In this document: positions 26,420 through 44,538 of the stretch, piece by piece
How the letters are laid out: each line of letters starts with the position of its first letter
Numbering within the stretch: the stretch's first letter is position 1
Origin: Burkholderiales bacterium
GTDB lineage: Bacteria > Pseudomonadota > Gammaproteobacteria > Burkholderiales > Casimicrobiaceae
Length of the DNA stretch: 46,247 nucleotides
Assembly (NCBI GenBank): GCA_020852555.1
Contig: JADZAQ010000242.1
Coordinates: 1 to 46,247, forward strand
Direction: 5' to 3'
The notes under the pieces: model-generated
Databases searched by the model: none
The model's input: the letters and a program-made list of their open reading frames with translations, nothing else
What the model was told of the DNA's origin: nothing
Made by a program: the position numbers and the translations under genes

Positions 26420-27406
26420 GTGATCGCCGCGACGGCGCTCACCGTGCTTGCCGCCGCGGCGTTGGCCGCGTTCGCGGTGGCGGCACTCGACCGCTGGCGG
26501 GCCCGGCTGCCCGTCGCCCGCGTCGATCGGCGCACGCTTCACGCCGGATCCATCCCTCGCGCGGGCGGCGTCGCGCTGTGGGTGGGCTTCATACCGCTCG
26601 CGCTGACGGTTCCCGCACCGGCCTGGCTGCGACCGACACTCTGGGCCGTCCCGTGGGCGCTGCTTGCCGCGGTGTCGCTGCGCGACGACATGCGTAGCGT
26701 GTCCGTATCGCTGCGCCTCGCGGTGCATCTTCTCGCTGCCGGCGGATTCGCGTGGCTGCTGGGGATGCAGTTCGCGCTGCCATGGTGGACGGTCGTGGGC
26801 GCCGCGGTCCTCACCGCGTGGGCGCTCAACCTCTACAATTTCATGGACGGCAGCGACGGGTTGGCGCTCACCATGACCGTCGTCGGCTTCACGGCATTCG
26901 GCGGCGTCGTGCTCGCGCGCGGCGAAGCGCCCGACGTGCCGCTGGCGCTGGCCGCCGCGGCGGCGCCGCTCCTCGTCGTGAATCGACCGCCGGCGCGAAT
27001 GTTCATCGGTGACGTCGGCGCCATCCCGATCGGCTTCCTCGCCGCCGCCTTCGGCATCGGTGGCGTGGCCGGCGGCGCCTGGTCGGCCTGGTTTCCGCTC
27101 CTCGTCTTCCTCCCGTTCGGCGCCGACGCCACCGTGACGCTCATCCGCCGCGTGGTCCGGGGCGAGCGCTTCTGGGAGGCGCACCGCGCGCATTACTATC
27201 AGCGCCTGCACCGTCTGGGGGCGGGGCACGCCGGAACTCTCGCCCTCTACGGCGGGCTCATGATCGCCTGCGCGACGAGCGCCGTGGTGTGCGAGCTCGC
27301 GGTTCCGGACTGGGGACTTGCGGCGCTCGGCGCGTGGTGCGCGGTGCACGGACTGCTGTTCGCGGCAATTGATTATCATTGGCGCCGGAGCGAGCTGACC
27401 ACGTGA
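26420..27406 (+). CDS. WecA/MraY-family undecaprenyl-phosphate sugar-1-phosphate transferase
   Basis: A 328-residue polytopic inner-membrane enzyme that transfers a sugar-1-phosphate (often GlcNAc-1-P) from a UDP-sugar to undecaprenyl phosphate, the first step of O-antigen-type repeat synthesis. Motifs: HAGSIPRAGGVALWVGF at the N-terminus, the aspartate motif SLRDDMRSVS, NLYNFMDGSDGLAL, and RMFIGDVGAIPIGF, with AHYYQRLHRLG in the last cytoplasmic loop. About ten hydrophobic segments are visible. The start is GTG; no better ATG exists upstream of the first helix. It overlaps the next gene by four bases (GTGA). The donor sugar is unproven. Confidence 0.88.
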   Translation: MIAATALTVLAAAALAAFAVAALDRWRARLPVARVDRRTLHAGSIPRAGGVALWVGFIPLALTVPAPAWLRPTLWAVPWALLAAVSLRDDMRSVSVSLRLAVHLLAAGGFAWLLGMQFALPWWTVVGAAVLTAWALNLYNFMDGSDGLALTMTVVGFTAFGGVVLARGEAPDVPLALAAAAAPLLVVNRPPARMFIGDVGAIPIGFLAAAFGIGGVAGGAWSAWFPLLVFLPFGADATVTLIRRVVRGERFWEAHRAHYYQRLHRLGAGHAGTLALYGGLMIACATSAVVCELAVPDWGLAALGAWCAVHGLLFAAIDYHWRRSELTT

Positions 27407-29313
27407 CCAAGAACCTCTTCAACGGGCGATCGCTGCTGGTCTTCGCTCACGATACCTGCGCGGCCGCGCTCGCGTGGATCGCGATGTATCTCTTGCGCTT
27501 CAATCTCGACGTGCGCGAGCCGTATCTCGCCGACATGTGGCGCACACTCGCCTGGATCGTGCCGTTGCAGGCGGCGATCTTCATGGCCTTCGGCCTGTAC
27601 CGCGGCTTGTGGCGGTTCGCGAGCATTCCGGATCTGCAGCGCATGGTGGGCGCCGCCGTGCTGGGCGGCATGCTGATTCCCGTCGTGCTGGTCATGCTGC
27701 AGCTCACCGCCGTCGTGCCGCGCAGCGTGCTCGTCTTCTATCCGGTCCTGCTCGTGTTCATCATGGCCGGCAGTCGCTTCACGTATCGGATCTGGAAGGA
27801 GCATCGCCTCTACAGTCCGCTCGAGGCACTGGGCGAACCCGTTCTCGTCGTCGGCGCGGGCGACGCCGGCGCGCGCCTCGCCAAGGAACTTTCGCGCAGC
27901 CGCCAGTGGCGCGTCGTGGGCTTCCTCGACGACGATGTCGCCAAGCAGGGGCGGTTGCTGCGCAAGTTGCGCGTGCTCGGCACCATCGACGGCCTCGGCC
28001 GGCTGTGCGAGCGCTACGGCGTGCACAAGGTGATCATCGCGCTGCCGTCGGCCAATCACCTCGTGCGTCGCCGGGTCGCCGACCTTTGCGCGGCCGCCGG
28101 CGTCCAGGCGCTCACCGTGCCGTCGTTCGACGATCTCATCAGTGGTCGCCTGGCCCTTACCACGATCCGCAACGTGGAGCTCGACGATCTCCTCGGCCGC
28201 GATCCCGTGGTCCTCGACAGCGCCGGGCTGGGCGAGTGGCTCGGCAATCGCGTGGTGCTCGTCACCGGCGCAGGCGGATCGATCGGTGCCGAGCTCACGC
28301 AGCAGATCGCCCGCTACCGCCCGGCGCGCCTCGTGCTCTTCGACGTCTCCGAAGCCGCGATCTACGAGATCCAGACCGCGCTGGCCGACGCCTTTCCGCT
28401 GCTGCCGCTGGTCTGCGTGGTCGGCGACGTCAAGCATGCGGCACTCGTCGACGAGGTGCTCGTGCGCGAGCGGCCGAGCGTCATCTTCCACGCCGGCGCG
28501 TACAAGCACGTGCCGCTGATGGAAGAAGTGAATGCCTGGCAGGCGGTGCGTAACAACGCGTACGGCACGTACGTGCTGGCGCGTGCGGCGGTCCGCGCCC
28601 GCGTCGAGAAATTCGTCCTGGTGTCGACCGACAAGGCCGTCAATCCCACCAACGTGATGGGAGCGAGCAAGCGTCTCGCCGAGATGGTCTGCCAGTGTCT
28701 GCAGGGTGCCGGGACGCAATTCGTCCTCGTGCGCTTCGGCAACGTGTTCGGCAGCGCCGGCAGCGTGATACCGCGCTTTCGCGAGCAGATCGCGCGCGGC
28801 GGGCCGGTGACCGTGACGCATCCGGAGATCACGCGCTACTTCATGTCGCTCTCCGAGGCGACGCAGCTCCTGCTCCAGGCAGGGCTGCAGGGACGTGGCG
28901 GCGAGATCCTCGTGCTGGAGATGGGCAAGCCGGTGCGCATCGTCGACCTCGCCCGCGATCTGATCAAACTCTCGGGTGCGGATCCGGTGAAGGTCGCCAT
29001 CGTGTTCACCGGCCTGCGCCCCGGCGAGAAGCTCTACGAGGAGCCGCTCGCCACCGAGGAAGCAACCAAGCCGACGCCGCACCCGAAGCTGCGGATCGCG
29101 CAGGCGCGCCGCGCCGATGGCGACGTCGTGGGCCAGATGGTGACCTGGTGCGAAAGCGATCGGGTGGCCGACGACGCCGAGGTCCGGGCCCGGCTCAACG
29201 CGTGGATCCCCGAATACGTTCCCGCTGCCGGGGCGCCGGTCAAGCCGTTGCCGGTTCCGCAGCGTGACGACACGCGACCGCTCCCGCTGCGGCCACGCGC
29301 CACCCGCAAGTAG
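27403..29313 (+). CDS. CapD/WbpM-family nucleotide-sugar 4,6-dehydratase (membrane-bound)
   Basis: A 636-residue polysaccharide biosynthesis protein. Four membrane helices at the N-terminus (about residues 10-125) are followed by a CoA-binding-like Rossmann domain (VLVVGAGDAGARLAKEL). The catalytic extended SDR domain has VLVTGAGGSIGAEL and LVSTDKAVNPTNVMGASKR. Members dehydrate UDP-GlcNAc at C4/C6, the first step towards 6-deoxy amino sugars such as QuiNAc, FucNAc or bacillosamine. The GTG at 27403 overlaps the preceding stop; a TTG at 27379 is an alternative but would overlap more. Encoded with the WecA-like enzyme, so it may supply its donor sugar (inference). Confidence 0.92.
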   Translation: MTKNLFNGRSLLVFAHDTCAAALAWIAMYLLRFNLDVREPYLADMWRTLAWIVPLQAAIFMAFGLYRGLWRFASIPDLQRMVGAAVLGGMLIPVVLVMLQLTAVVPRSVLVFYPVLLVFIMAGSRFTYRIWKEHRLYSPLEALGEPVLVVGAGDAGARLAKELSRSRQWRVVGFLDDDVAKQGRLLRKLRVLGTIDGLGRLCERYGVHKVIIALPSANHLVRRRVADLCAAAGVQALTVPSFDDLISGRLALTTIRNVELDDLLGRDPVVLDSAGLGEWLGNRVVLVTGAGGSIGAELTQQIARYRPARLVLFDVSEAAIYEIQTALADAFPLLPLVCVVGDVKHAALVDEVLVRERPSVIFHAGAYKHVPLMEEVNAWQAVRNNAYGTYVLARAAVRARVEKFVLVSTDKAVNPTNVMGASKRLAEMVCQCLQGAGTQFVLVRFGNVFGSAGSVIPRFREQIARGGPVTVTHPEITRYFMSLSEATQLLLQAGLQGRGGEILVLEMGKPVRIVDLARDLIKLSGADPVKVAIVFTGLRPGEKLYEEPLATEEATKPTPHPKLRIAQARRADGDVVGQMVTWCESDRVADDAEVRARLNAWIPEYVPAAGAPVKPLPVPQRDDTRPLPLRPRATRK

Positions 29314-29317
29314 CCCC

Positions 29318-30652
29318 TCACGCGCGCCGCAGGCGGGCCTCGTGCAGCCGGCGCATGCCGTACCCCACGAGCAGCGCATTGAACGCCCAGAATTCCTTGC
29401 TGGTGGGGCGGACGAGGAAATCGTCGGTCATCGACTTGGTGACGAACATCGCGAGCAGGGTGAGACCCACCACGCCGATCGCCGCCAGCGTGCCGTCGGC
29501 GGCACGCATGAACCTCGCGTAGCGAAGCGCGAGCGCCCCGAGCACGGCGACGAGCGTGATGACGCCGATGGCGCCGGTCTGCAGCCATTGACTCACGAAG
29601 AGGTTGTGCGCGTGGACGAGCAACGGATTGCCAAGCTCCGCCTGGAATTCGCTGCGCAGGATCGACTTGCCGTAGCCGTAGCCGATCCACGGCCGCTGCG
29701 CGATGCGCTCGAATGCGTGCTGCCACAGCACGAGGCGCGGATCGTCGGCGATCGCCTTGGCGATCGTCGCCTCGGGCATGCGGATCATGTGCGCCCGCTG
29801 CAGCGTCGCATCGGCAAAGAGAATCACGAAGATGGTGAGGAGCGCCGCGAGCAGGAGGCCCCATCGTTTCGGGGCGCGGATCAGACGGGCGCGCCACCGC
29901 CAGGCGGCGAGCATCGCGGCGGTCACGAACCCCGCGGCGAGGGCGACCCAGACCATGCGATTCTCGGTGATGCGGGCGCCCGCGAGCAGGAGCACGAAGG
30001 TCGCGCCGGCGGCGACGAGTGACCGCGGGCCGACGCCGTAGCCCGCGCGGCGCGGTGCCACGACGAGCGGGACGAGCGGCACGACGAGCACGAGATACGT
30101 CGAGAAGGCGCCGACGCCCCCATGGTGGGTGACCAGGAGTCTCTCGGGGTCGGCGCCGGGGTCGGCGAGAACGACGTAGATCGCGAGGCACGACAGCCAT
30201 GCCGCCGCACCGAGTGCGACGGTGACGATGGTGCGGAACGCGGACCCCGATCGCGCCGCGACGTAGAAGATCACCGCCGTGGCGAGCCCCCAGCCGATCT
30301 CGGTGCCGATCTCGCCCAGCGTGTAGGCGGGATGGATCGACCAGGTCCACGAGGCGGCCGACCACCCGGCCCAGGCGAGGATCGCCACGACGACATGGCG
30401 GTCGGGTCGCGGTATCGGGGGTGCATCGGAGAAGAGCGCGCCGAGGACGAGCCACAGCGAGCAGCCGGCGGCGATGCCGAAGGCGATCGAGCGGATGTAC
30501 GTATGCCCGGTGATCGCCACCAGGGCGAGATAGACGCACGCCCAGACGAGGGCGCTCCATTCGAGGAACGCGAACATCCGGGCGCGCAGCGCCGCTCCCC
30601 GCGCGGAACGCAGCCACGAAGCCGGCCGGTGCGCTTCAGTGGGTGGCGGCAT
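29318..30652 (-). CDS. O-antigen ligase/polymerase family membrane protein
   Basis: A 444-residue protein with about ten to twelve hydrophobic segments and a large periplasmic loop containing HNLFVSQWLQTGAIG, the conserved His motif of the WaaL/Wzy (PF04932) family. Members either attach O-antigen to the lipid A core or polymerise repeat units; which applies here is not decided. Start chosen at ATG 30652 (MPPPTEAHRPASW); an open frame extends to 30724 but overlaps more of the upstream gene. It overlaps the end of the GT9-like gene by 17 bases and so is in the same operon. Converges closely on the CapD-like gene. Confidence 0.82.
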   Translation of the reverse strand: MPPPTEAHRPASWLRSARGAALRARMFAFLEWSALVWACVYLALVAITGHTYIRSIAFGIAAGCSLWLVLGALFSDAPPIPRPDRHVVVAILAWAGWSAASWTWSIHPAYTLGEIGTEIGWGLATAVIFYVAARSGSAFRTIVTVALGAAAWLSCLAIYVVLADPGADPERLLVTHHGGVGAFSTYLVLVVPLVPLVVAPRRAGYGVGPRSLVAAGATFVLLLAGARITENRMVWVALAAGFVTAAMLAAWRWRARLIRAPKRWGLLLAALLTIFVILFADATLQRAHMIRMPEATIAKAIADDPRLVLWQHAFERIAQRPWIGYGYGKSILRSEFQAELGNPLLVHAHNLFVSQWLQTGAIGVITLVAVLGALALRYARFMRAADGTLAAIGVVGLTLLAMFVTKSMTDDFLVRPTSKEFWAFNALLVGYGMRRLHEARLRRA

Positions 30653-31622
30653 GCGGAAGCGCCGCGGCGAGTGCGACGTCGAGGGCGGTGGCGACGCGCT
30701 CGACCGCGAGCGCGCGCACATCATCGCCGGGTCCCACGAGGGGCGTGTGAACGAGATGGGGATTGGGCGACGGGCAGCCTTGCTTCAGCACGCCCTGGCG
30801 CGGATCGGACCACAGCGAGATCACGTCGAGCGCCTCGGTGCCGGCGAGGTAATAGGCGAGGGTGAGGATGCCGCTGTCCGGGACGACGAGGATGCGGCAG
30901 CGCGTGCGCAGCACGGCGAGGAGCGAGAGAAGATCGGTGCGGCCACGCAGGTCGACGACGTGCTCGCCCGTCAACGGCGGCTCCGGCGCGTGACCGAAGA
31001 GGAGCCAGCGCAGGTCGTCGCGGTCCCGGTAGCGGGCGAGGAGTGCGCGCCAGTGCGCGGCGGGCCAGTCCTTCACGTAGCCGTAGTAGCGTGCGGTCTC
31101 GGAGTTCACGTGGACACCGACGGTGACGCGGTCGGGTGCTCGCGGCACGATCGCGTCGGCGAGCGCATCCCACTGCGGCTGCCAGCGCAGGCGCGGAGGG
31201 TACCTGGTGCGTTGCCCGTCGAGCCAGCGCGTGGGGTCGGGGTCGGCGAAGACGACGGCACTCGGCGGCAGCGCGCGACCCTGCGCCGCGGCCGCGGCCG
31301 CGACGTCGACGGCGGTACCGCGCGCGAGGCCGGGGATCGCGTGCGCGGCATCGCAATCGGTTAGCGCGAAGCCGGGAACGAGTTCGTCGCGGGTGTACAC
31401 CTCGATGTGTGCCGCCGGAACGATGCTGCGGATGCGCAGGAACAGTGGGACGAGTCCGAGCGCGATGTCGCCCAGGCCCCGATTCCAGCCGAATACGAAA
31501 TCACGCGTGCCCGCGCGCGCCGCGGCGTCGAGCGTGCGTTCGAACGTCGTGCCGCGCAGCCGGTCCGAGGCGAGGCGCGCGAGCCGCTTCACGTTGAAGC
31601 GGCCACGGCTACGCAAGCGCAT
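30636..31622 (-). CDS. Glycosyltransferase family 9-like protein
   Basis: A 328-residue protein resembling the GT9 (heptosyltransferase) fold. The N-terminal domain has FVFGWNRGLGDIALGLVPLFLRIRSIVP, and the C-terminal nucleotide-sugar domain has TVGVHVNSETARYYGYVKDWPAAHWRALL and ILVVPDSGILTLAYYLAG, equivalent to the GT9 D(S/T)G segment. It is more divergent than the other two GT9 genes in the cluster, and the glycosyl donor is unknown. First gene of a leftward pair with the ligase; a good -10 (TATAAT) lies about 100 bases upstream. Confidence 0.72.
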   Translation of the reverse strand: MRLRSRGRFNVKRLARLASDRLRGTTFERTLDAAARAGTRDFVFGWNRGLGDIALGLVPLFLRIRSIVPAAHIEVYTRDELVPGFALTDCDAAHAIPGLARGTAVDVAAAAAAQGRALPPSAVVFADPDPTRWLDGQRTRYPPRLRWQPQWDALADAIVPRAPDRVTVGVHVNSETARYYGYVKDWPAAHWRALLARYRDRDDLRWLLFGHAPEPPLTGEHVVDLRGRTDLLSLLAVLRTRCRILVVPDSGILTLAYYLAGTEALDVISLWSDPRQGVLKQGCPSPNPHLVHTPLVGPGDDVRALAVERVATALDVALAAALPHAATH

Positions 31623-31946: not shown

Positions 31947-33824
31947 ATGTGCGGCATCGCCGGATACGTCAGCGACCAGATCTTCGCGCCCGAAGTGCTC
32001 GTCGCGATGACGCGCCTGCTCGCGCACCGCGGGCCCGATGCCGATGGTTTCCTGACCTCGGGCCCGGCGCATTTCGGCCATCGCCGGCTCTCGGTGATCG
32101 ACCTCGAAGGTGGCGCGCAGCCGATGACCGGCGCCGACGGGCAGGTCGCGGTGGTCTTCAACGGCGAGATCTACAACTTCGCCGCCCTGCGCGACGAACT
32201 GTCGCGCGGCGGCTGGGAATTCCGTTCGGCGGGCGATACCGAAGCGATCATCGCCGGTTGGTGCGCGTGGGGTGAAGAAGTCGTGGCGCACCTGCGCGGG
32301 ATGTTCGCCTTCGCGCTCTGGGATGCGCGCACGCGCACACTATTCGCCGCGCGCGATCACCTTGGCGTGAAGCCCTTCCACTACGCGCTGCGCGACGGCA
32401 CCTTCGTCTTCGGATCCGAATTGAAAGCGGTGCTTGCGCATCCGGCGGCGGCGGCGACGACGATCGACCCTGCGGCGCTACGCCTCTATCTCGAGTGCCA
32501 GTTCGTCCCGGCGCCGTACTGCGCATTCGACGGCGTGCGCAAGCTGCTCCCTGGTCAGGCGCTGACCTTCACCGGCGGCAGGCTCGCCGTTCGCGACTAC
32601 TGGCGTCCCGACTATCGCGACAAGCTCGACCTCAGCGACGACGAGGCGGTCGACGCCGTCGACCGCGAGTTGCGGACGTCGGTGCAAGGCATGCTGGTCG
32701 CCGACGTCCCGCTCGGCGCATTCGTGAGCGGTGGGGTCGATTCGGGCCTCATCGCCGCGCTGATGACCGACCTGAAGGGGGCGCCGATCGACACCTTCAA
32801 CGTCGGCTTCGAGGGTGGCGTCGCGGTCAGCGAGCACGCCGAGGCGGCGCGCGTCGCCCGCCACCTGGGCGCGCGCCACCACACGCTGATGCTCTCGCCC
32901 GATCACGTGCTCGATGCCTTCGATCGCTGGTTCGACGTGTTCGACGAGCCGTTCGCCGATCAGGCCGCGTTGCCGACGATGCTGCTCGCCGGTTTCGCGC
33001 GCCGCGAGGTGACGGTGGTGCTCACCGGCGAAGGCGCCGACGAGGTATTCGGCGGCTATTCGAACTATCGCACCCGGATCCGCGACGAGGCTTACACGAG
33101 GTGGCTTGGGCATCGCCGTTCCCCGGTACCGACGTTGGCGCGGGCGCTGCCGCTCGCCTGGCGCAAGGACCGCTTCCTGCGCGCGCTGGCCGAGCCGTTG
33201 CCGCGGCGCTATCGCACCATCCCGAACGTCTTCGACGCGCTGCTGCACGAGCGGCTCTTCTCACCCGCATTTCTCGCGGCCACCGCGCAAGCACCCGACG
33301 TCGGCAGTCTCGCCGCGGCGGCCTTCGCGCAGGCCGGCGACGCACCATACCTCGATCGCCTGCTGCACGTCGATACGCGGCTGTGGCTTCCCGACGATCT
33401 ACTGACCAAGGTCGATCGGGCGACCATGACGCATTCGCTGGAAGCGCGCGTGCCCTACCTCGATCATCGCTTCGTCGAGTTCTGCGCACGGCTCGCTCCG
33501 ACGCAGAAGATCCGCGGCCGCGACCACAAGCACGTCCTGAAGCGGGTGGCCCTGCGCTACCTGCCGCGCGACATCGTGCGCCGCGGCAAGCAGGGCTTCG
33601 TCATGCCGCTCTCCGAGTGGCTCGCCGGTCGCCTCGCCGGCGAAGTCGACGACCATCTCGGCGCGCGGGGCCTGGACCATCGGGGCCTGTTCCGCGACGG
33701 CGCGCTCGGTGCGCTCCTTGCCGAGCACCGATCGGGCCGGCGCAACCACGCGGGGCGGGTGTGGGCGCTGCTCATCCTCGAGCGCTGGTTCCGGCGTTAC
33801 GCGCCGTCGTGGTCGCTGCGATGA
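31947..33824 (+). CDS. asnB: Asparagine synthetase-like glutamine amidotransferase (first copy)
   Basis: A 625-residue class II amidotransferase. After removal of Met, the N-terminal nucleophile Cys of MCGIAGYVSDQ releases ammonia from glutamine; LLAHRGPDADG, NGEIYNF and AARDHLGVKPFHYA are typical of that domain. The C-terminal ATP-pyrophosphatase domain has LGAFVSGGVDSGL (Ser261) and VVLTGEGADEVFGGY, then VDRATMTHSLEARVPYLDH. The family makes asparagine, but copies in polysaccharide loci often amidate sugar carboxyl groups, which its place among glycosyltransferases suggests. ATG chosen because Cys2 is obligatory. The stop overlaps the next start (ATGA). Confidence 0.9.
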   Translation: MCGIAGYVSDQIFAPEVLVAMTRLLAHRGPDADGFLTSGPAHFGHRRLSVIDLEGGAQPMTGADGQVAVVFNGEIYNFAALRDELSRGGWEFRSAGDTEAIIAGWCAWGEEVVAHLRGMFAFALWDARTRTLFAARDHLGVKPFHYALRDGTFVFGSELKAVLAHPAAAATTIDPAALRLYLECQFVPAPYCAFDGVRKLLPGQALTFTGGRLAVRDYWRPDYRDKLDLSDDEAVDAVDRELRTSVQGMLVADVPLGAFVSGGVDSGLIAALMTDLKGAPIDTFNVGFEGGVAVSEHAEAARVARHLGARHHTLMLSPDHVLDAFDRWFDVFDEPFADQAALPTMLLAGFARREVTVVLTGEGADEVFGGYSNYRTRIRDEAYTRWLGHRRSPVPTLARALPLAWRKDRFLRALAEPLPRRYRTIPNVFDALLHERLFSPAFLAATAQAPDVGSLAAAAFAQAGDAPYLDRLLHVDTRLWLPDDLLTKVDRATMTHSLEARVPYLDHRFVEFCARLAPTQKIRGRDHKHVLKRVALRYLPRDIVRRGKQGFVMPLSEWLAGRLAGEVDDHLGARGLDHRGLFRDGALGALLAEHRSGRRNHAGRVWALLILERWFRRYAPSWSLR

Positions 33825-34927
33825 GCCGGCGACTGTCGATTCTCCACACCGAATCGTCGATCGGCTGGGGCGGCCAGGAGCTGCGCATCCTGACCGAGAT
33901 GGAGGGGATGCAGCGCCGCGGACACCGGGTGACGCTCGTCACCGCCGACAGCGCCGAGATCCTCCCGGCGGCGCGGCGCCGTGGGCTCGACGTCGTGGGA
34001 CTGCCGATCGCGTACAAGAAATATCGCGGTCTCGCGGCGCTGCACCGCTGGCTCGCCGCGCACGCCCGCGAGTACGACGTCGTCAATACGCACAGCTCGA
34101 CCGACGCCTGGCTCGTGGCGCTCGCCGGCACCACGCTCGCCGGCGTGCCGCCGGTGGTGCGCACCCGCCACGTGTCGACACCGGTGAACAACTCGCTCAC
34201 CACGCGCTGGCTCTACCAGAGCGCGACGCGCCACCTCATCGTGACCGGCGAGGCGCTGAAGGCGCAACTGGTGCGCGACAACGGCTTCGATCCTTCGCGC
34301 ATCACGTCGGTGCGCACCGGCATCGACCTCGACTACTTTCGTCCGCGCGACGCGTCCGCGGCGACCGACGGTGATTCCCGGCCGGCGGTGATGATCCTCG
34401 CCACGCTGCGCGACTGGAAAGGTCACGACGACCTGCTCGATGCCTGGAAGCTCTTGCGGGCGCGCGTCCCCGGCTGGCGGCTCCTCGTCGTGGGTGACGG
34501 TCCGCGGCGCGCACACCTCGAAGCGCGCGTGGCTGAGATGGGCCTGTGCGCCGACGTGACCTTCGCCGGCAACCAGGACGACGTGCCGGCGTGGTTCGCA
34601 CGCGCACGGATCGCCGTGCTGCCGTCGTACGGCGACGAGGGCGTGCCGCAGAGCCTCATGCAGGCGGCGGCGTGCGGGCTGCCGGCGGTTTCGACGCCGA
34701 TCGGCGCAATCGCCGAGGCGGTCGTCGACGGCGTGACCGGACTCCTCGTACCGCCGCGCGACGTGGCGGCGCTCGCCGCCGCACTCGAGCGACTGGTGGT
34801 GGATGACGAGCTTCGCAAGCGCCTGGGCGGCGCGGCGCACGCGTACGCGCAGGAGAATTTCGGCATCGAACGCATGCTGCTCGCCATGGAGGAGGTATTG
34901 GCCGGCGTCGTCGGGGGAGGTCGCTGA
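33821..34927 (+). CDS. Glycosyltransferase family 4 (between the two amidotransferases)
   Basis: A 368-residue GT-B enzyme. The N-terminal acceptor domain starts MSRRLSILHTESSIGWGGQELRILTEMEGMQRRGH; the C-terminal donor domain contains LRDWKGHDDLLDAWKLL, LLVVGDGPRR, and the E-x7-E-like region PSYGDEGVPQSLMQAAACGLPAVST (here the first acid is in the YGDEG segment). It will transfer a sugar from a nucleotide donor to a lipid- or core-linked acceptor in the cytoplasm. Translationally coupled to the upstream amidotransferase by ATGA and abutting the second amidotransferase start. Specificity unknown. Confidence 0.9.
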   Translation: MSRRLSILHTESSIGWGGQELRILTEMEGMQRRGHRVTLVTADSAEILPAARRRGLDVVGLPIAYKKYRGLAALHRWLAAHAREYDVVNTHSSTDAWLVALAGTTLAGVPPVVRTRHVSTPVNNSLTTRWLYQSATRHLIVTGEALKAQLVRDNGFDPSRITSVRTGIDLDYFRPRDASAATDGDSRPAVMILATLRDWKGHDDLLDAWKLLRARVPGWRLLVVGDGPRRAHLEARVAEMGLCADVTFAGNQDDVPAWFARARIAVLPSYGDEGVPQSLMQAAACGLPAVSTPIGAIAEAVVDGVTGLLVPPRDVAALAAALERLVVDDELRKRLGGAAHAYAQENFGIERMLLAMEEVLAGVVGGGR

Positions 34928-36769
34928 GTGTGCGGCATCGCCGGGCATCTGGGGACACCACGCGGCCCCGCGTTGCGCGAGCGGATGCGCAGCGCGCTGC
35001 TGCGCCGGGGCCCCGATGCGCAGCACGATGCCGCCTTTGCGGCCGACGGCACGCGCCTGCCCGACGACGCGCACGCCGCGGTGGGCCTCGTGCACACGCG
35101 CCTGTCGATCATCGATCCGCGTCCGCTGGCCGACCAGCCGATGGGAAGCGACGACGGTCGCGTGTGGATCGTCTACAACGGCGAGGTCTACGGCTGGCAG
35201 GCGGCCGCCCGCGAGCTCGCGGCTCGCGGCGTGCGCTTTCGCACCACGTCCGACACCGAATTCATCCTTCGCGGCTACCAGGCGTGGGGGATCGAGGCGC
35301 TGTTGCCGCGGCTGCGCGGCATGTTCGCCTTCGCGATCGTCGATTTCCGCACCGGCAAGGCGCACGTGGTGCGCGACCGGCTGGGCTTGAAGCCCGTCGT
35401 CTACGCGCACGATGCGAGCGGCCTCGCCTTCGGTTCCACCGTGCGCAGCGTGCTGCCGTGGCTGCCGCGCGCGCGCCGCCAGTTCTCGCTCGAGGCGATC
35501 GACGCCTACCTCGCGCATCGCTACGTCCCGGCGCCGCGCACGGTCTTCGCGAACATCGCGCGCCTGCCCAATGCGCACCGGCTCGAATACGATCTGGCGC
35601 AGGGCACGGCCGCGCTGCACCGGTGGTGGGTGCCACACGGCGAGCCCGGTGCCGACGGCGCCGCGCTCCTCGACGAGGCGATCGCGCTGCGGCTCGTCGC
35701 CGATCGCCCGCTGGGGCTCTTCCTGTCGGGCGGTGTCGACTCCGGGGCGATCGCCTGCCGCCTCGCCGCCACCGGCCATCGCGCGCTGCGCTCCTTCTCG
35801 GCGGCGTTTCCCGGAAGCGCTTTCGACGAGAGCGTCGAGGCGGCGGCGACCGCGCAGGCGCTGGGGCTTGCCAACGAGCGCATCGTGGTCCCGACGTCGA
35901 TCCGCGACGATTTCTCCGAAATCGTCGCCACTCTGGACGAGCCGTTCGCCGACCCGTCGTCGTTTCCGACCTGGTATCTCGCGCGCGCCACCGAGCGCCA
36001 CGTCAAGGTCGTGCTCGGCGGGGACGGCGGCGACGAGCTCTTCGCGGGCTACAAGCGCATCGCCAAGCACCTGCGCACGGGCTGGCGCGGTGCGCTGCGC
36101 CTGCCGCTGCCGGTGCTCCCCGATCGCCACGCCAAGGGTTGGCGCAAGGCGCTCGGCGAGGCGAGCGCCGGCTACGAGGATGCCTACGCGCTGCGTTTCT
36201 CGGGGCTCACGCCCAACCAGCGACGCTTCCTGCAGCCGGCGTGCGCGGCGCCGCCAATCCACTACTGGCGCTCCCCCGACTTTGCCTCGACCAATCGTCA
36301 CGACCGGCTCCTGCGCTGGGATTTCGCGAACTACCTGCCCGAGTACGTCCTGCGCAAGGCCGACCTCGCCACGATGGCGCACGGGCTCGAACTGCGCGCG
36401 CCGCTCCTCGATCACCGCTTCGTCGAGGCGGTCCTCGGCCTGCCGCCCGCGGTACGTTTCACGAAGCCGCCCAAGCGTTACCTGGGCGAACTCGCACCGG
36501 AACTCGTCCGGTTGGGCGTTTTCGAGCGCAAGAAGCGTGGCTTCAATCCGCCGCTGTCCGGATGGCTGCGCGACGACCTGCGTGAGCAGCTTCACGAAGC
36601 GCCGGCGTCGCTGCACGCGAGTACCGGCGGCGCCATCGACGCGCGGCGCACGGAGGCGCTCGTCACCGCGTATGCCACGACGTCGTCGCTGGCCGAGCAG
36701 GTCCTCTCGCTCGTCATCCTCGCCGAGAGCCTGCGCCAGCTCGCCGCGCTCGCCGCCGATGCGCCGTAG
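34928..36769 (+). CDS. asnB: Asparagine synthetase-like glutamine amidotransferase (second copy)
   Basis: A 613-residue second member of the AsnB family, clearly diverged from the copy at 31947. It begins at GTG with (M)CGIAGHLGTPRGP, keeping the nucleophilic Cys2. LLRRGPDAQHDA and NGEVYGWQ belong to the glutaminase domain; LGLFLSGGVDSGA (Ser267) and VVLGGDGGDELFAGY belong to the synthetase domain, followed by LRKADLATMAHGLELRAPLLDH. Both half-reactions therefore look intact. The GTG follows directly on the GT4 stop, so it belongs to the same operon. Amidation of a glycan carboxylate is the likelier role than asparagine supply, by context only. Confidence 0.9.
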   Translation: MCGIAGHLGTPRGPALRERMRSALLRRGPDAQHDAAFAADGTRLPDDAHAAVGLVHTRLSIIDPRPLADQPMGSDDGRVWIVYNGEVYGWQAAARELAARGVRFRTTSDTEFILRGYQAWGIEALLPRLRGMFAFAIVDFRTGKAHVVRDRLGLKPVVYAHDASGLAFGSTVRSVLPWLPRARRQFSLEAIDAYLAHRYVPAPRTVFANIARLPNAHRLEYDLAQGTAALHRWWVPHGEPGADGAALLDEAIALRLVADRPLGLFLSGGVDSGAIACRLAATGHRALRSFSAAFPGSAFDESVEAAATAQALGLANERIVVPTSIRDDFSEIVATLDEPFADPSSFPTWYLARATERHVKVVLGGDGGDELFAGYKRIAKHLRTGWRGALRLPLPVLPDRHAKGWRKALGEASAGYEDAYALRFSGLTPNQRRFLQPACAAPPIHYWRSPDFASTNRHDRLLRWDFANYLPEYVLRKADLATMAHGLELRAPLLDHRFVEAVLGLPPAVRFTKPPKRYLGELAPELVRLGVFERKKRGFNPPLSGWLRDDLREQLHEAPASLHASTGGAIDARRTEALVTAYATTSSLAEQVLSLVILAESLRQLAALAADAP

Positions 36770-37874
36770 GGGAAGCCGCGCGCCGCTGCGCTACGCGAGC
36801 GTGGCACTGGCGCTCGCGCGCTGGGGAGTGCGCCGGAGAAGGCCCGCCGCGCCGGGGCGGATCCTCGTCCTGCACCACCTGCTGCTGGGCGACACGCTGC
36901 TGCTGACGGCGCTGCTCGCCAAGCTGCGGCAGCGCCATCCGCAGGCCGAGATCGTGATGACCGTGGCGCCGGCCTTCGTCGAGCTCTTCGCCGGCCGACC
37001 GTACGGCGTGGTCGCGCACGCCTTCGATCCGCGCGACTTCGCGACCTTTCGCGCGCTCCTCGCCCGACCGCGCTTCGACCTCGCGATCCTCCCCGCCGAC
37101 AATCGCTACACGTGGCTCGCCCGCGCGCTCGGCGCGCGGTGGATCGTGGGTCTCGCCGGTGATCGTCCGTGGCACAAGAACTGGCCCGCCGACGAGCTCG
37201 TTCCGTATTCGCCGACACCGACCGCGTTCTGCGACACCGCGACCGAACTCGTCGAGGGTCCGCAGCCGGCACGGTACACGTCGCTCGCGTGGCCGCCGCC
37301 ACCGGATCGCGAGCGCGTGTCGGTGCCGCGGCGCTACGCGGTGCTCCACGTCGGCGCATCGTCGCCGCTCAAGCTCTGGCCACCGGCGCGCTGGCGCGCG
37401 CTCGCCGACGCGCTCGCCGCCGACGGCCTCGCGATCGTGTGGAGCGCGGGCCCCGGCGAAGACGCCGTTCTCGCGGCCATCGCGGCCCGCGACGGCGAGG
37501 TGCGAATCGGCGGCACGCTCACGCTCGCCGGGCTGTGGCACCTCCTCGCGCGCGCGGCGCTCGTGGTGTGCCCGGATACCGGTGTGGCGCACCTCGCGCG
37601 CATCGTCGGCGTGCCGGTCGTCACGCTGTTCGGGCCGGGGTCGGCGCTGGTGTGCGGACCCGGCCGGTTCTTCGCCGCGATGCCGGACCGCGCGGTGACC
37701 GTCGACCCCTTCCCCTGTCGGGATCAGCGTATCCAGTTCTTTCGCGAGGTGGCGTGGATGCGCCGCTGCGAGCGCCTCTTCGGGCCGCCGCCCGGGCGCT
37801 GCCCCGAGGCGCGCTGCATGCAGGCGATCGGCGTCGCGCCGGTGCTGGCGGCGGCGCGAGGTGTCGTCCGCTGA
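36759..37874 (+). CDS. Glycosyltransferase family 9 (heptosyltransferase-like)
   Basis: A 371-residue GT9 protein. The N-terminal domain has RILVLHHLLLGDTLLLTALLAKLRQRHPQAEI, and the C-terminal domain has YAVLHVGASSPLKLWPPARWRALADAL and VVCPDTGVAHLARIVGVPVVTLFGPGS, the ADP-heptose-type binding segment. A cysteine-rich C-terminus (four Cys between CRDQ and CMQA) is also seen in the WaaQ-like protein of this cluster. Its ATG lies inside the last codons of the second amidotransferase (11-base overlap). Probably adds a sugar to the LPS inner core. Convergent with msbA, six bases between stops. Confidence 0.87.
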   Translation: MRRRGSRAPLRYASVALALARWGVRRRRPAAPGRILVLHHLLLGDTLLLTALLAKLRQRHPQAEIVMTVAPAFVELFAGRPYGVVAHAFDPRDFATFRALLARPRFDLAILPADNRYTWLARALGARWIVGLAGDRPWHKNWPADELVPYSPTPTAFCDTATELVEGPQPARYTSLAWPPPPDRERVSVPRRYAVLHVGASSPLKLWPPARWRALADALAADGLAIVWSAGPGEDAVLAAIAARDGEVRIGGTLTLAGLWHLLARAALVVCPDTGVAHLARIVGVPVVTLFGPGSALVCGPGRFFAAMPDRAVTVDPFPCRDQRIQFFREVAWMRRCERLFGPPPGRCPEARCMQAIGVAPVLAAARGVVR

Positions 37875-37880
37875 CGTCGC

Positions 37881-39647
37881 TCAGGTGGCCACGGCCGCCG
37901 CCTCGGCGTCGTCGGCAACGGGCGCGAGCTGGCGGCGATGCAGCCGTGCGTAGGCGCCGTCGGCGGCGAGCAGTTGCGCGTGCGTCCCGACCTCGACGAC
38001 GCGTCCCGCGTCGAGAACGACGATGCGATCCGCGTGCTCGATGGTCGACAGGCGGTGCGCGATCACGATCGTGGTGCGCCCGTGCATCAGCGTGTCGAGC
38101 GCGGCTTGCACCTGCCGTTCGGATTCGGAATCGAGCGCGGAGGTCGCCTCGTCCAGGATGAGCAGCGGCGCGTTCTTGAGGATCGCACGGGCAATGGCGA
38201 TGCGTTGCCGCTGGCCGCCGGACAGCCGCACCCCATTCTCGCCGACGATGGTGTCGAAGCCATCGGGCATGGCGCGGATGAAGTCGAGCGCGTGCGCGGC
38301 GAACGCCGCGCGCTCGACCTCCTCGCGGGAGGCATCGGCCATCGCGCCGTAGGCGATGTTGGCGGCGACGGTGTCGTTGAACAGCAGCACGTCCTGCGCC
38401 ACCATCGCGATCTGCCCCCGCAGGCTGGCGAGCGTGAGCGTGGTGATGTCGTGGCCGTCGACGAAGAGGCGGCCCGCGGTGGGCTCGTAGAAGCGCGGGA
38501 CGAGGTTGACGAGCGACGTCTTGCCGCTGCCCGACGAGCCGACGAGCGCCACGGTCTCCCCCGGCGCGATGGCGAGCGAGACGTCGGAGAGCGCCTCGCG
38601 CTCGCCGCTGCCGTAGCGCAGCGACACGCGCTCGAAGCGGATCTCGCCGCGGCAGCGGTCGAGCGTGACGTTGCCGGTGTCGGCCTCCTCCTCGTGGTCG
38701 AGCAAGCCGAAGATGCTCTCGGCGGCGGCGAGGCCGCGCTGCAACGCCGCATTGATCCCCGACAGGCCCTTCAGCCGCTCGAGCAGCGTCAGCAGCGCGA
38801 CCACGTACGACATGAAGAGCGCGAAGTCGAATTTGTTGACGCCGTCGTTCTGCGCGAGCGCGATCCACACGATCGAGCCGACCGCGCAGGCAGCCAGGAA
38901 TACGGTGAGCGGTGAACTCGCGGCGGTCGCCGACGATTCCTTGGTCATCGCATTGCGCAGGCGATTGGCGGCCGCCACGGCCCGTGCCCGCTCGTATTGC
39001 TCGCCGCCGAAGATGCGCACGACGCGGTGGCCGGAGATCATCTCCTCGAGGACCTGGGTGAGCGACCCCGTGCGGTCCTGGATGTCGCGCGCGATGCGGC
39101 GCAGCCGGCGGCTGAAATAGCGGATGATCACGCCGACGATCGGGACCACGACGAAGGTGAGCAGCGTGAGGCGCCAGTTGAGCCAAAGGAGGTAACCGAA
39201 GCTCGCCACGATGGTCAGCGACGAGCGGATCGCGTTGGTGATCGCCCCCGACGCGGCGGAGGCGAGCTGGTGCGCGTCGAACGAGATCTTCGACTGGATC
39301 GCGCCGGCGGCGTGCGCGTCGTAGTACGGGGTGGGTAGGCGCAGCAGCTTGTCGATGAGATCGCGGCGCAGGTCGAACACCACCCGATAGCCGGTCCAGC
39401 CCATGCCGAACTCGGACAGGTACGCACCGACGCCACGCAGCAGGAACACGACGACGATGGTGAGCGGCAGCCACCGCGTCCCGGTGGGGTCGGGCGCCTC
39501 GAAATTGCGCACGATCGGGATCACCAACCACGCCAGCATGAGGTCGCCGGCGGCGACGATCAGCATGCCGAGCACGGCCACGCCGAACGCCCAGCGGTAG
39601 GGGCGGACGTAGCGGAGCAGGCGGGAGTAGAGGGAGAGACCCGTCAT
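37881..39647 (-). CDS. msbA: Lipid A export ABC transporter MsbA
   Basis: A 588-residue half-transporter of the MsbA family, which flips lipid A-core across the inner membrane at the cost of ATP. The N-terminal half carries six membrane helices (starting in YRWAFGVAVLGMLIVAAGDLML) and the C-terminal half the nucleotide-binding domain: Walker A GSSGSGKTS (about residue 370), the signature LSGGQRQRIAIARA, Walker B LLILDEATSALD, and the switch His in VIAHRLST. Start chosen at ATG 39647 (MTGLSLYSRLLRYVRPY), as the upstream extension is Arg-rich and unlike the family. Its place among core glycosyltransferase genes supports the role. Confidence 0.92.
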   Translation of the reverse strand: MTGLSLYSRLLRYVRPYRWAFGVAVLGMLIVAAGDLMLAWLVIPIVRNFEAPDPTGTRWLPLTIVVVFLLRGVGAYLSEFGMGWTGYRVVFDLRRDLIDKLLRLPTPYYDAHAAGAIQSKISFDAHQLASAASGAITNAIRSSLTIVASFGYLLWLNWRLTLLTFVVVPIVGVIIRYFSRRLRRIARDIQDRTGSLTQVLEEMISGHRVVRIFGGEQYERARAVAAANRLRNAMTKESSATAASSPLTVFLAACAVGSIVWIALAQNDGVNKFDFALFMSYVVALLTLLERLKGLSGINAALQRGLAAAESIFGLLDHEEEADTGNVTLDRCRGEIRFERVSLRYGSGEREALSDVSLAIAPGETVALVGSSGSGKTSLVNLVPRFYEPTAGRLFVDGHDITTLTLASLRGQIAMVAQDVLLFNDTVAANIAYGAMADASREEVERAAFAAHALDFIRAMPDGFDTIVGENGVRLSGGQRQRIAIARAILKNAPLLILDEATSALDSESERQVQAALDTLMHGRTTIVIAHRLSTIEHADRIVVLDAGRVVEVGTHAQLLAADGAYARLHRRQLAPVADDAEAAAVAT

Positions 39648-39817: not shown

Positions 39818-40981
39818 CTACCCGGGGATGGGCTGCGTGGCGGCGCGGCCGGCGACGGTCGGCAGCAGCCGCTCGTAGAGGGCGACGAGGCGTGCCGCCA
39901 TCGCCGGCGGAGTGAGATCGGCCATCGCGGCGCTCGCCTGCGTGGCCATCCGCGCCCGCACGCCGGGGTCGAGGAGGGCGTGCATGCTGGCGGCGATGGC
40001 GTCGATGTCGCGCGCGCCGACGACGAAGCCGGCGCCGTGCTCACCCACGAGTTCGCCGGCACCGCAACGCTCGCTCGTCACCACCGGCAGGCCGCAGGCG
40101 AGTGCTTCGAGCACGGCGTTCGACAGCGCGTCGTAGAGCGTCGGCAGCACGAACGCATCGGCCGCACCGTAGAACGGCCGCGGATCGTCCTGCGCGCCGG
40201 CGAAGGTGACGCGCGCGGCGACGCCGAGCCGCCGCGCGAGCGCCGCGTAACGCTGCGGATGGCGGTCGCGCCCGACGACCACGAGGTGCGCCGGTGCCGG
40301 CACGCGGACGAGCGCCTCGAGCGCCCGTCGCACGCCCTTGCGTGCGTACTCGGAGCCCACGAGGAGGAACACGCACGCTTCGGCGGGGATGCCGTGGCGC
40401 ATGCGCGTGGCCTCGCGCGATGCGGCGAGGCCGGGGTGGAAGCGCGCGGGATCGATCGCGTTGTAGATGATGGGCAGGCGATCGAGCGGAAGCCCGAAGC
40501 GCTCATGGATCTCGCCTTGCACCATGCGCGAGATGCAGATCACCGCTTGCAGCCGCCGGCTCGCGAACATCCGTCGCTCGGCGGCCATCACGTAGCGGTG
40601 GTAGGGGCTCGCGGCCAGCACCAGTCGGTCGGCCGCGGAAGCGTGGCGCAGGCGCTCGTCGACCCAGCTCGCATGCACGCCATCACCGGCGCGGTAGAGG
40701 TCGCAGCACGCGAGACGCTCGTGCGATTGCACGAGCGTCTCCGGAAGTCGGGCGAGCGCCGCGCACGCGGCGCGCGCGAAGCCGGCGTCACGCAGCGTGC
40801 GTCCGACGTATGGGGGGGCGACGACGAGCGGGACGATGCGCGGGTCGCCGCCGTCCGGCCAGCGCCGCGTCACCAGCGTCAACTCGACACCGCGCGCCGC
40901 GAGTGCGGCCAGCGCCCGCTCGACGAAGCGCTCGGCACCGCCATAGGGCGTGTAGCGCTGGCGCACGATCGCAAGCCGCAT
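39818..40981 (-). CDS. Glycosyltransferase family 4, tandem paralogue A
   Basis: A 387-residue GT-B glycosyltransferase. It opens MRLAIVRQRYTPYGGAERFVERALAAL; the donor domain shows LVGSEYARKGVRRALEALVRVP, HLVVVGRDRH, FAGAQDDPRPFYGAADAFVLPTLYDALSNAVLEALACGLPVVTS, with the conserved Glu in VLEALACG. It is clearly related along its whole length to the neighbouring gene at 40999, so the pair arose by tandem duplication. The N-terminus resembles WaaG-like LPS core glucosyltransferases, but the donor sugar is not proven. Same leftward operon as the next two genes upstream. Confidence 0.88.
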   Translation of the reverse strand: MRLAIVRQRYTPYGGAERFVERALAALAARGVELTLVTRRWPDGGDPRIVPLVVAPPYVGRTLRDAGFARAACAALARLPETLVQSHERLACCDLYRAGDGVHASWVDERLRHASAADRLVLAASPYHRYVMAAERRMFASRRLQAVICISRMVQGEIHERFGLPLDRLPIIYNAIDPARFHPGLAASREATRMRHGIPAEACVFLLVGSEYARKGVRRALEALVRVPAPAHLVVVGRDRHPQRYAALARRLGVAARVTFAGAQDDPRPFYGAADAFVLPTLYDALSNAVLEALACGLPVVTSERCGAGELVGEHGAGFVVGARDIDAIAASMHALLDPGVRARMATQASAAMADLTPPAMAARLVALYERLLPTVAGRAATQPIPG

Positions 40982-40998: not shown

Positions 40999-42309
40999 TC
41001 AGGGCGGCGGCGCCGCGGAGCGCGCCGCGTCGGCGGCAGCTGGCGCCGCGGCGGCTGCGTCGTTACCGGAAGGATCGGCGAGCGTCTCGGCGTCGAGCCC
41101 GAATTCGCCGTGCAGGGGCGGCGCTTCCGCCGCCGCGGTCGCGGGTGCGGGATTCGTCTTGGGCGCGAGCTTGTGCGCGATGCTCGCCTCGAGCAGTTCC
41201 TTGTAGACGAGGACGAGGGCCAGCGTGGTCGCGGCGGGCGAGTGCGGCAGCATCGCCTCGCGCGCGCGAACACCCATCGCCGCGCGCGCCGGGGCATCGA
41301 GGAGCAGCTGCATCGCGGCAGCGATGGCGTCGGTATCGTGCGCGGCGCAGACGCGGCCCGCATCGTGCGCGGCAACGAGATCCGCCACGCCGGACTGCGT
41401 GCTCGTGATCACCGGCAACCCGCTCGCCATCGCCTCCATCGTTGCATCCGGCGACGGATCGTAGAGCGCGGGGAGCACGAAGGCGTCGGCCGCAGCCAGG
41501 TACGGTGCGACGTCGGCCTGATAACCGGCAAAGGTCACCCGGCTGGCGACGCCGTGGTCGCGAGCGATGCGCTCGAAGTCGCCGCGGCGCGCGTCGTTGC
41601 CCACGATGACGAGGTGCGCCGGCGCCGGCAACCGGGCGAGCGCGGTGATTGCCGTGCCCGCTCCCTTGCGCCGGTACCCCGAGCCGACCAGCACGAAGAC
41701 GGGCGTGTCGGCGGCGATTCCGTGGCGCTCGCGGGTCGCTGCGCGCGATGCGGCGTGCATCGGCGAGAAACGGTCGGTATCGACCGCGTTGCGCAGCACC
41801 CGCAGGCGTTCGTCGGGAAGACCGAAGCGGGTCCTGATGTCGTCGCGGACCAAGGGCGACGGGCAGAGGACCATGCGCAGCCAATGGCTGGCGAAGAGCT
41901 TGCGCTCCATCGCGAGCGCGTAACGGTGGCGCGGGGACAGCGCGGCCCGCCACCGCGTCACCGCGGAGGCGGCGCGCAGCGACTCCCCGAGCCAGGTGGC
42001 GTACACGCCGTCATCGGGACGGTAGACGTCGCAGGTGAGCACGAGTTCGTGCGACTGCACGAGATTCGCGCGCGTGCTCGCCACGCTCCGGGCCACCGCG
42101 CGGGCGAAGCCGGCGTCGCGCCAGAGCGCGCCGAGATGGAACGGATCGACCACCGTGGGCTCGATCAACTGGAGCTTCGTCGCTGGCCACTGCCGCGTGT
42201 AGAGGGTGATCGCGACGTTGCGCTCGAGCAGCGCCTCGAGCGCGCCTTCGAGGAAGCGCTCGGCGGCCCCCTCGGGGTCGTAGCGCTGGCGGATGATCGC
42301 GAGGCGCAT
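40999..42309 (-). CDS. Glycosyltransferase family 4, tandem paralogue B with Ala/Pro-rich tail
   Basis: A 436-residue GT4 enzyme starting MRLAIIRQRYDPEGAAERFLEGALEALLERN, paralogous to the gene at 39818. Donor-domain landmarks are LVGSGYRRKGAGTAITALARLP, HLVIVGNDARR and FAGYQADVAPYLAAADAFVLPALYDPSPDATMEAMASGLPVITS. The last ~55 residues form a low-complexity Ala/Pro-rich extension (from about NPAPATAAAEAPP) that paralogue A lacks. The ATG overlaps the upstream WaaQ-like stop (TGATG), so translation is coupled. Likely a core-oligosaccharide transferase; specificity unknown. Confidence 0.88.
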   Translation of the reverse strand: MRLAIIRQRYDPEGAAERFLEGALEALLERNVAITLYTRQWPATKLQLIEPTVVDPFHLGALWRDAGFARAVARSVASTRANLVQSHELVLTCDVYRPDDGVYATWLGESLRAASAVTRWRAALSPRHRYALAMERKLFASHWLRMVLCPSPLVRDDIRTRFGLPDERLRVLRNAVDTDRFSPMHAASRAATRERHGIAADTPVFVLVGSGYRRKGAGTAITALARLPAPAHLVIVGNDARRGDFERIARDHGVASRVTFAGYQADVAPYLAAADAFVLPALYDPSPDATMEAMASGLPVITSTQSGVADLVAAHDAGRVCAAHDTDAIAAAMQLLLDAPARAAMGVRAREAMLPHSPAATTLALVLVYKELLEASIAHKLAPKTNPAPATAAAEAPPLHGEFGLDAETLADPSGNDAAAAAPAAADAARSAAPPP

Positions 42310-43415: not shown

Positions 43416-43520
43416 CCGCCGACGATACCAAACTTCAGGGACCGTACGCCGCCGCGCCGAACCGATGGGTAGGCGCTCACTGCCGCGCACTGCCGCGATG
43501 GGGGCTGCCCCCGTTCGGAG

Positions 43521-43526
43521 TACAAT
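43521..43526 (+). promoter_or_regulatory. Candidate -10 element of argB
   Basis: TACAAT, five of six matches to consensus, about 67 bases before the argB ATG. A G/C palindrome, GGGGGC/GCCCCC around 43500-43512, occupies the -35 region. Confidence 0.4.
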
Positions 43527-43592
43527 CTCCGCGCGTCCGGAACGCTCCGTTCGCTCCGGAACCCCTGTCCCCGTTGCCTGCCCGCCACCGTC

Positions 43593-44501
43593 ATGACCGC
43601 CGACGACGTCAGCACCGCGCTCAAGGCGCAGATCCTCGCCGAGGCGCTGCCGTACATCCGGCGCTTCCACGACAAGACGATCATCGTGAAGTACGGCGGC
43701 AACGCGATGACCGAGCCGGCGCTGAAGGCCGGTTTCGCCCGTGATGTGGTGATGCTGAAGCTGGTGGGGATGAATCCGGTGATCGTGCACGGCGGCGGCC
43801 CGCAGATCGGCGACCTCCTGCAGAAGATGGACATCAAGAGCGAGTTCCGCCAGGGCATGCGGGTGACCGACGAGCGCGTGATGAACGTCGTCGAGATGGT
43901 GCTGGGCGAACTGAATCAGGAGATCGTCGGCCTCATCAACCAACACGGCGGCAAGGCGGTGGGGTTGACCGGGCAGGACGGCGCATTCATCCGCGCCCGC
44001 AGGATGCTGCTCAAGCCCGAGAACGGGAGCGGGGCGCCGGTCGACATCGGCTTCGTGGGTGAGATCGAGCACATCGATCCCGAGATCATCCAGCTCCTCG
44101 ACTCGCGCGATTTCATTCCGGTCGTCGCGCCGATCGGCGTCGGCGCCGCGGGCGAGGCGTACAACATCAACGCCGATCTCGTCGCCGGCAAGCTGGCCGA
44201 GACGCTCCAGGCCGAGAAGCTCGTGCTGATGACCAACACCGTCGGCGTCCTCGACAAGAAGGGGAATCTCATCACCGGGCTCACCGCCTCCGAGATCGAC
44301 CGGCTCTTCGCCGACGGCACGATCTCCGGCGGCATGCTGCCGAAGATCGGCTCGGCGCTCGACGCGGTGAAGAACGGCGTGGCGAGCTCGCACGTGATCG
44401 ACGGGCGGGTGGAGCACGCGCTGCTCCTCGAGATCCTCACCAACGAAGGCGTCGGCACGATGATCCGTGCCGACGACGCGTCGCAGCGCCGCGCGGCCTG
44501 A
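43593..44501 (+). CDS. argB: Acetylglutamate kinase
   Basis: Phosphorylates N-acetylglutamate in the second step of arginine synthesis. The 302-residue amino-acid kinase fold has [12 protein letters not shown] at the N-terminus, [17 protein letters not shown], the substrate region [28 protein letters not shown], and [18 protein letters not shown] near the C-terminus. An N-terminal helix of about 25 residues before the first strand is typical of arginine-inhibitable hexameric forms; feedback control is therefore likely but not proven. slmA follows on the same strand. Confidence 0.96.
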
Positions 44502-44538
44502 CGGCCGGCACGTCCCGCACGGCGCACGACGGGCGACG

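Follow-up and report, generated by a model that had tools for sequence, protein, structure and literature searches.

Glutamine-dependent amidotransferases of the asparagine synthetase type are found in surface-glycan clusters of several bacteria. According to one source (PMC7468200), WbpS of Pseudomonas aeruginosa has long been proposed to act in uronamide formation, WbqG of Escherichia coli O121 has been demonstrated to be required for it (citing King et al. 2010), and PGN_1234, a WbpS-type protein of Porphyromonas gingivalis, is needed for a glucuronamide; WbpS and WbqG are named there as members of eps_aminotran_1. Here we analyse two enzymes of this type, AsnB1 and AsnB2, encoded on either side of a glycosyltransferase gene (GT4a) in a 46,247-nucleotide stretch of DNA from a Burkholderiales bacterium of the Casimicrobiaceae (GenBank assembly GCA_020852555.1, contig JADZAQ010000242.1, positions 1 to 46,247; hereafter, the window). 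We think it fairly probable that they are two separable glutamine-dependent amidotransferases of lipopolysaccharide (LPS) core-type glycan assembly, each amidating a carboxylate. The module is real, conserved, well supported and of a known enzyme kind, and what appears to be new is its core-type setting and its apparent co-inheritance with a subtype of GT4a.

Like WbpS, WbqG and PGN_1234, with which they are compared here by description, AsnB1 and AsnB2 are asparagine synthetase-type proteins and share the location in a surface-glycan cluster that goes with WbpS and WbqG, and eps_aminotran_1 is their best model too. The substrates of the three described proteins, however, are O-antigen or A-LPS sugars and their products are known, whereas here the locus seems to be of the LPS core type and two clades are represented in one predicted operon. 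An arrangement of this type is already in print, since the O-polysaccharide cluster of Acidovorax oryzae RS-2 (PMC11597636) includes two asparagine synthetases (orf1719 and orf1721) and a glycosyltransferase (orf1720), likened to ours by description and with the adjacency deduced from the numbering; that cluster has wzm/wzt, unlike the window's locus. Several such amidotransferases per polysaccharide cluster are also found in Rubrivivax gelatinosus, whose psc1 cluster has three wbpS-annotated genes, a mutation in one of which, in a regulator-null background, altered the mode of growth and the form of the colonies (PMC3684757), but psc1 has PEP-CTERM-associated genes and is no LPS core locus. 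Nothing on amidotransferases of LPS core loci was recognised among the literature matches listed, in a search that covered mainly literature free of subscription.

Two diverged amidotransferases in one gene run

A previous sequence-only reading of this DNA had described two diverged asparagine synthetase-like genes around a GT4 gene and followed by a GT9 gene, and open reading frames (ORFs) in exactly that order occupy 31947-36769, with GT9b next:

31947-33824, plus strand: AsnB1, glutamine-dependent amidotransferase with asparagine synthetase fold; ATG start, 625 amino acids; Cys2 at 31950-31952, SGGVDSG at 32727-32747
33821-34927, plus strand: GT4a, GT4-type glycosyltransferase (PF13692, PF00534, PF13439)
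34928-36769, plus strand: AsnB2, glutamine-dependent amidotransferase of a second clade; GTG start, 613 amino acids; Cys2 at 34931-34933, SGGVDSG at 35726-35746
36759-37874, plus strand: GT9b, GT9 (heptosyltransferase-like) glycosyltransferase; PF01075 84.2 bits, heptosyltransferase models below their cut-offs

These genes form a tight run in which AsnB1 and GT4a share an ATGA start-stop overlap, the start of AsnB2 directly abuts the stop of GT4a and GT9b begins 11 bases inside the 3' end of AsnB2; from this spacing, the four are predicted to be co-transcribed.

Both amidotransferases consist of an N-terminal glutaminase domain (PF13537: AsnB1 149.6 bits, E 5.2e-44; AsnB2 E 6.2e-34) and a C-terminal synthetase domain (PF00733: AsnB1 313.4 bits, E 3.8e-93; AsnB2 253.7 bits, E 5.4e-75). 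In the numbering of E. coli AsnB without its start Met, where Cys1 is the Cys2 of the list above, the alignment has Cys1, Arg49, Asn74, Gly75, Glu76, Asp98, the PP-loop SGGVDSG, Asp351 and Lys449 kept in both proteins, which bears out the earlier statement that both copies retain Cys2 and SGGVDSG and extends it to further glutaminase residues. Both belong to the glutamine-hydrolysing asparagine synthetase superfamily by the two domains, the catalytic Cys, the NGE and SGGxDS motifs and TIGR01536 (cut-off 267.1), which AsnB1 passes with 473.9 bits and AsnB2 with 341.8. They have the fold and catalytic residues of E. coli AsnB, but score below the cut-off (499) of NF006949, the E. coli-type AsnB model, with 294.3 and 164.7 bits (E. 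coli AsnB itself, as a control, scores 1050.3), and both also fail the lasso peptide cyclase model NF033535 (cut-off 525) with 203.5 and 127. Position 348 is Glu in 19/19 AsnB1 rows and Asp in 65/65 core AsnB2 rows, this core being what is left of 70 AsnB2 rows once 5 outlying ones are excluded, and position 387, an Arg in E. coli AsnB, is Lys in all 19 and 65. At position 384, which has a gap nearby in the large alignment, AsnB1 has Leu and AsnB2 Asn (Val in the window's AsnB2 in a four-sequence alignment), so that neither has the Asp of E. coli AsnB as aligned. In a re-examination of Foldseek's ranking, narrower than a full search, the AlphaFold models (mean predicted local distance difference test score 83.9 for AsnB1 and 90.1 for AsnB2) had the TsnB9 hydroxyamidotransferase 7ylz as the top solved structural match (Z 37.2 over 549 aligned residues for AsnB1, Z 34.4 over 528 for AsnB2, with a root-mean-square deviation of 2.6 in each case), followed by E. 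coli AsnB 1ct9 (Z 34.1 and 32.7, respectively). A sequence search for solved relatives of GT4a returned general GT4 enzymes only, with no clue to the sugar.

That the two copies are clearly diverged, as also claimed before, is reflected both in their identity (37% over 577 aligned columns) and in the amidotransferase tree (126 rows, 123 of them different), which, like the other trees used here, is a midpoint-rooted quick search with support from the Shimodaira-Hasegawa-like approximate likelihood ratio test (SH-aLRT) only. The window's AsnB1 and 18 relatives form one clade in it and 69 rows form the AsnB2 clade, each with an SH-aLRT of 100. A recent duplication as the origin of the pair was considered and is ruled out by this identity and because each copy has its own deep clade.

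The probable LPS core-type setting and its distribution

Upstream of the run lie the WecA-like, FlaA1/WbpM-like, PF04932 and GT9a genes and, on the far side, those for MsbA, GT4b, GT4c and the WaaQ-like protein, together with argB:

26420-27406, plus strand: WecA-like lipid-phosphate sugar transferase (PF00953 76.3 bits)
27379-29313, plus strand: FlaA1/WbpM-type sugar-nucleotide dehydratase (PF02719 350.5 bits)
29318-30646, minus strand: PF04932 protein of O-antigen ligase (WaaL) or polymerase type (71.2 bits; start uncertain)
30636-31622, minus strand: GT9a, divergent GT9 glycosyltransferase (PF01075 25.7 bits, cut-off 22)
37881-39647, minus strand: MsbA lipid A/core exporter (TIGR02203 720.2 bits, cut-off 602; start read from the translation)
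39818-40981, minus strand: GT4b glycosyltransferase (PF13692, PF00534)
40999-42309, minus strand: GT4c, GT4-like, resembling GT4b in its N-terminal part by eye; start inferred
42309-43415, minus strand: WaaQ-like heptosyltransferase III (TIGR02201 284.7 bits, cut-off 170.2, scored on the longer ORF 42309-44903; start inferred)

Because the run sits between waaL-like and msbA/waaQ-like genes, the locus looks like an LPS core-type rather than an O-antigen cluster. Similar neighbours recur around relatives of AsnB2, which were scanned in the best 80 of 215 loci, 71 of these 80 having an AsnB2-type gene; the loci were found using AsnB2 and are therefore uninformative on its own frequency. Among these loci, L041 of Dechloromonas sp. 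H13 has GT4a adjoining AsnB2 in an LPS locus. Within 6 kb of the gene, in the 45 of the 71 loci flanked by 4 kb or more on each side, the neighbours were GT4b-like (26 loci), WaaQ-like (25), GT4a (25), GT9b (23), MsbA (19) and AsnB1-like (10, one of which, in L040, is a 39% paralogue outside the AsnB1 clade).

A survey of the order that was not chosen by AsnB (399 genomes, the window's included and taken as the same for both searches; thresholds E <=1e-145 for AsnB1 and E <=1e-140 for AsnB2) found AsnB1 in 10 genomes, AsnB2 in 24 and both in 8, a co-occurrence with a Fisher p of 2.1e-9 if kinship is ignored. GT4a follows AsnB1 in 10/10 genomes, for which reason AsnB1 is regarded as tied to it, and directly precedes AsnB2 in 13/24. 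The contiguous AsnB1-GT4a-AsnB2 trio is present in seven of the eight genomes holding both; in the eighth, G213, AsnB1 and a cut GT4a end one contig and AsnB2 begins another. The two amidotransferases are nevertheless separable, since each also occurs without the other: in G170 and G332, AsnB1 and GT4a are accompanied by a GT9-like gene but by no AsnB2 there (three members of the same genus, G127, G244 and G274, carry the trio), and 16 genomes have AsnB2 with no AsnB1 match at the survey thresholds. An obligate AsnB1-AsnB2 heteromer, as a candidate arrangement, is disfavoured on the same grounds. Some surveyed genomes seem to be the same as loci of the AsnB2 scan (identical rows, e.g., G006/L004 and G127/L032), so the counts of both sets are not to be added together.

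Within the window's own genus, msbA is present in 21/22 genomes, of which eight, picked for long contigs and no listed AsnB pair, were read around this gene. All eight keep por, wecA, flaA1, msbA and a GT4a homologue adjoining msbA, and AsnB1 and AsnB2 are absent from the msbA locus in 8/8; elsewhere in these genomes, three of which were checked, G007 has no PF00733 match and G002 and G014 have no AsnB1/AsnB2 survey match. The GT4a of these genus-mates forms its own clade (SH-aLRT 100, second GT4a tree), 49 of the 51 other GT4a rows lying beyond a branch of support 94 from it, and it is encoded in the same direction as msbA, opposite to what is seen in the window. Their GT9b, recognised in 5/8, groups with the window's GT9b with support 90. 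This points to GT4a and the amidotransferases having been gained or lost together, between flanks that were inherited. Moreover, msbA is 86-94% identical to that of the window in G006, G008 and G009, each with an AsnB pair beside msbA by position, 79% (over part of the protein) in G011, whose AsnB pair lies on a different contig, and 70-76% in the remaining genomes, a pattern that a single event in one sub-lineage would almost account for. The gene set therefore recurs in remote relatives but is absent at this position in near ones. Core amidation would be optional, in that sister lineages retain the locus while their GT4a is of another kind and no amidotransferase is found there.

Proposed function and its alternatives

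What would the two enzymes do in such a locus? By homology and from the active-site residues kept, glutamine would be hydrolysed in the N-terminal domain of each, and a carboxylate would be adenylated in the C-terminal domain and then turned into an amide. The most likely targets of AsnB1 and AsnB2 are two distinct carboxylated residues, probably uronic acids, which would lie in the part of the chain that GT4a and the adjacent GT9 enzymes assemble. AsnB1 and GT4a may serve one and the same step, in which GT4a would transfer the sugar modified by AsnB1; AsnB2 is more widespread in core loci than AsnB1 and is also found without it. The sugars, the order of the steps (on a nucleotide sugar or on a lipid-linked chain) and the amides themselves we infer. 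The glycan role proposed in the sequence-only reading, whose O-antigen precedent is real (WbpS and WbqG, as described above), has accordingly gained an LPS context, two distinct enzymes in separate clades and two separable steps, each of which occurs alone, while its uronic-acid substrates and its two different sugars keep the conditional standing given here.

Some observations weigh against this role. A GT4a homologue is present without AsnB in the sister genomes, the GT4a partners of AsnB1 are not one clade (6 changes on the GT4a tree, in which L117, L123 and L156 are loci cut short and not cases of AsnB1 alone), and the long-branched GT4a proteins of L015 and L052, both AsnB-bearing loci, fall on the genus-mates' side. 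Thirteen of the 71 AsnB2 loci have none of nine LPS-type neighbours over the thresholds used, namely L072, the short L038, L064-L067 (outlying AsnB2 rows, of Verrucomicrobia type and the like) and seven from Chromobacteriaceae. Genes for uronic-acid synthesis were not recognised in the window's locus, and nucleotide-sugar dehydrogenase homologues lie near AsnB2 in only 2/71 loci (L026 and L034), so that uronic-acid genes were dropped as a pointer to the sugar. Finally, the assembly encodes AsnRS (635.1 bits) and has no AsnA match (0/61 genomes searched). As a separate observation, the Chromobacteriaceae relatives of AsnB2 (L027, L029, L044, L047, L069, L073 and L075) had transporters and regulators as neighbours where these were scanned (L029, L047 and L075), including a major facilitator superfamily transporter and iron-transport genes.

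A bolder proposal, which we consider possible but doubtful, is that AsnB1-GT4a-AsnB2 serves in the LPS core as a charge-masking cassette that lineages can exchange, by which one GT4a would be swapped for another GT4a plus one or two carboxylate-neutralising amidotransferases, and that core amidation is widespread and undescribed in beta- and gammaproteobacteria, carried by two clades that pass no specific named-family cut-off among those scanned. Negatively charged groups in the LPS core bind divalent cations and help to keep the outer membrane intact, and replacing core carboxylates by amides would directly change core charge, cation binding and membrane integrity, an effect that the presence and absence of the genes within one genus makes testable between close relatives. 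The two clades further suggest that many "asparagine synthase" annotations in such genomes correspond to glycan-modifying enzymes.

The amidated carboxylates could also be other than uronic acids, for example, 3-deoxy-D-manno-oct-2-ulosonic acid (Kdo) or an amino acid attached to the core. The scarcity of uronic-acid genes around AsnB2 speaks for this option, as do the nearby heptosyltransferase-like genes, which point to the inner core; nonetheless, those glycan relatives whose products are known form uronamides (PMC7468200), and two TIGR03026 nucleotide-sugar dehydrogenase genes are found elsewhere in the window's genome, so that we take it to be unlikely.

Could AsnB1 (or AsnB2) instead be the asparagine synthetase of the organism, lodged in an LPS operon where the other copy does the glycan work? 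The AsnRS and AsnA results given above are in line with it, as are the TIGR01536 scores of both proteins. AsnB1 keeps E348 and D351, which by our own matching of the numbering (motif SGEGSDE) are taken to correspond to Glu-364 and Asp-367 of human ASNS, two residues whose substitution abolished or lowered the activity of that enzyme (PMC6748925). In the assembly (94% complete, 5% contaminated), the only other PF00733 match carries Ala in place of the catalytic Cys, so that, with AsnA not found, the source of free asparagine is unaccounted for; a search for a separate housekeeping asnA or asnB yields no further candidate. GatB, however, is present and offers another route, which makes tRNA-dependent asparagine formation possible. 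Both proteins are far under the E. coli-type model NF006949 and have Lys for R387 and no Asp at 384 as aligned, the latter being less sure due to the nearby gap. Some other bacterial asparagine synthetases also differ at these two positions. Across 22 members of the genus, AsnRS and AsnB-type genes (any PF00733 match >200 bits, so that the weak or fragmentary G002, G005 and G010 count as lacking) are unlinked, with the latter in 9/14 genomes with AsnRS and 6/8 without it, and in G004, G007 and G021 AsnRS is accompanied by neither a PF00733 nor an AsnA match, although their incompleteness (94, 96 and 86% complete) could hide genes. AsnB1, moreover, adjoins GT4a in every case seen. An asparagine role for either protein is hence disfavoured, and we rate it as improbable.

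The weakest alternative, that the pair is part of an XrtA/PEP-CTERM exopolysaccharide system, finds its support in the same domain order and in TIGR03108 being the best NCBIfam model of both, yet it has next to no likelihood and was set aside as ruled out, given that AsnB1 (563.7 bits) and AsnB2 (365.2) are far under the cut-off of 816.9, that a third, XrtA-type clade (17 rows, SH-aLRT 100) stands apart from both of theirs and has TIGR03108 scores of 1105.5 and 1069.4 in the two members scanned (2/17), and that no other XrtA-named model is over its cut-off among the matches listed.

With glycan amidation kept as the preferred role of AsnB1 and AsnB2, some minor observations can be added. In G004, G007 and G021, the source of free asparagine is puzzling in its own right, as these genomes combine AsnRS with no AsnA or PF00733 match. 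The third PF00733 protein of the window's genome (contig C193, locus L003, 1420-3318, minus strand), the one with Ala for the catalytic Cys, is lasso-peptide-cyclase-like (NF033535 309 bits, cut-off 525) and has beside it, by eye, ORFs with a P-loop motif (3322-4086) and a methyltransferase-like motif (67-864), which is possibly a lasso peptide locus. In the window itself, positions 2465-4249 (minus strand) encode a GDSL lipase/esterase domain fused to an autotransporter beta-domain.

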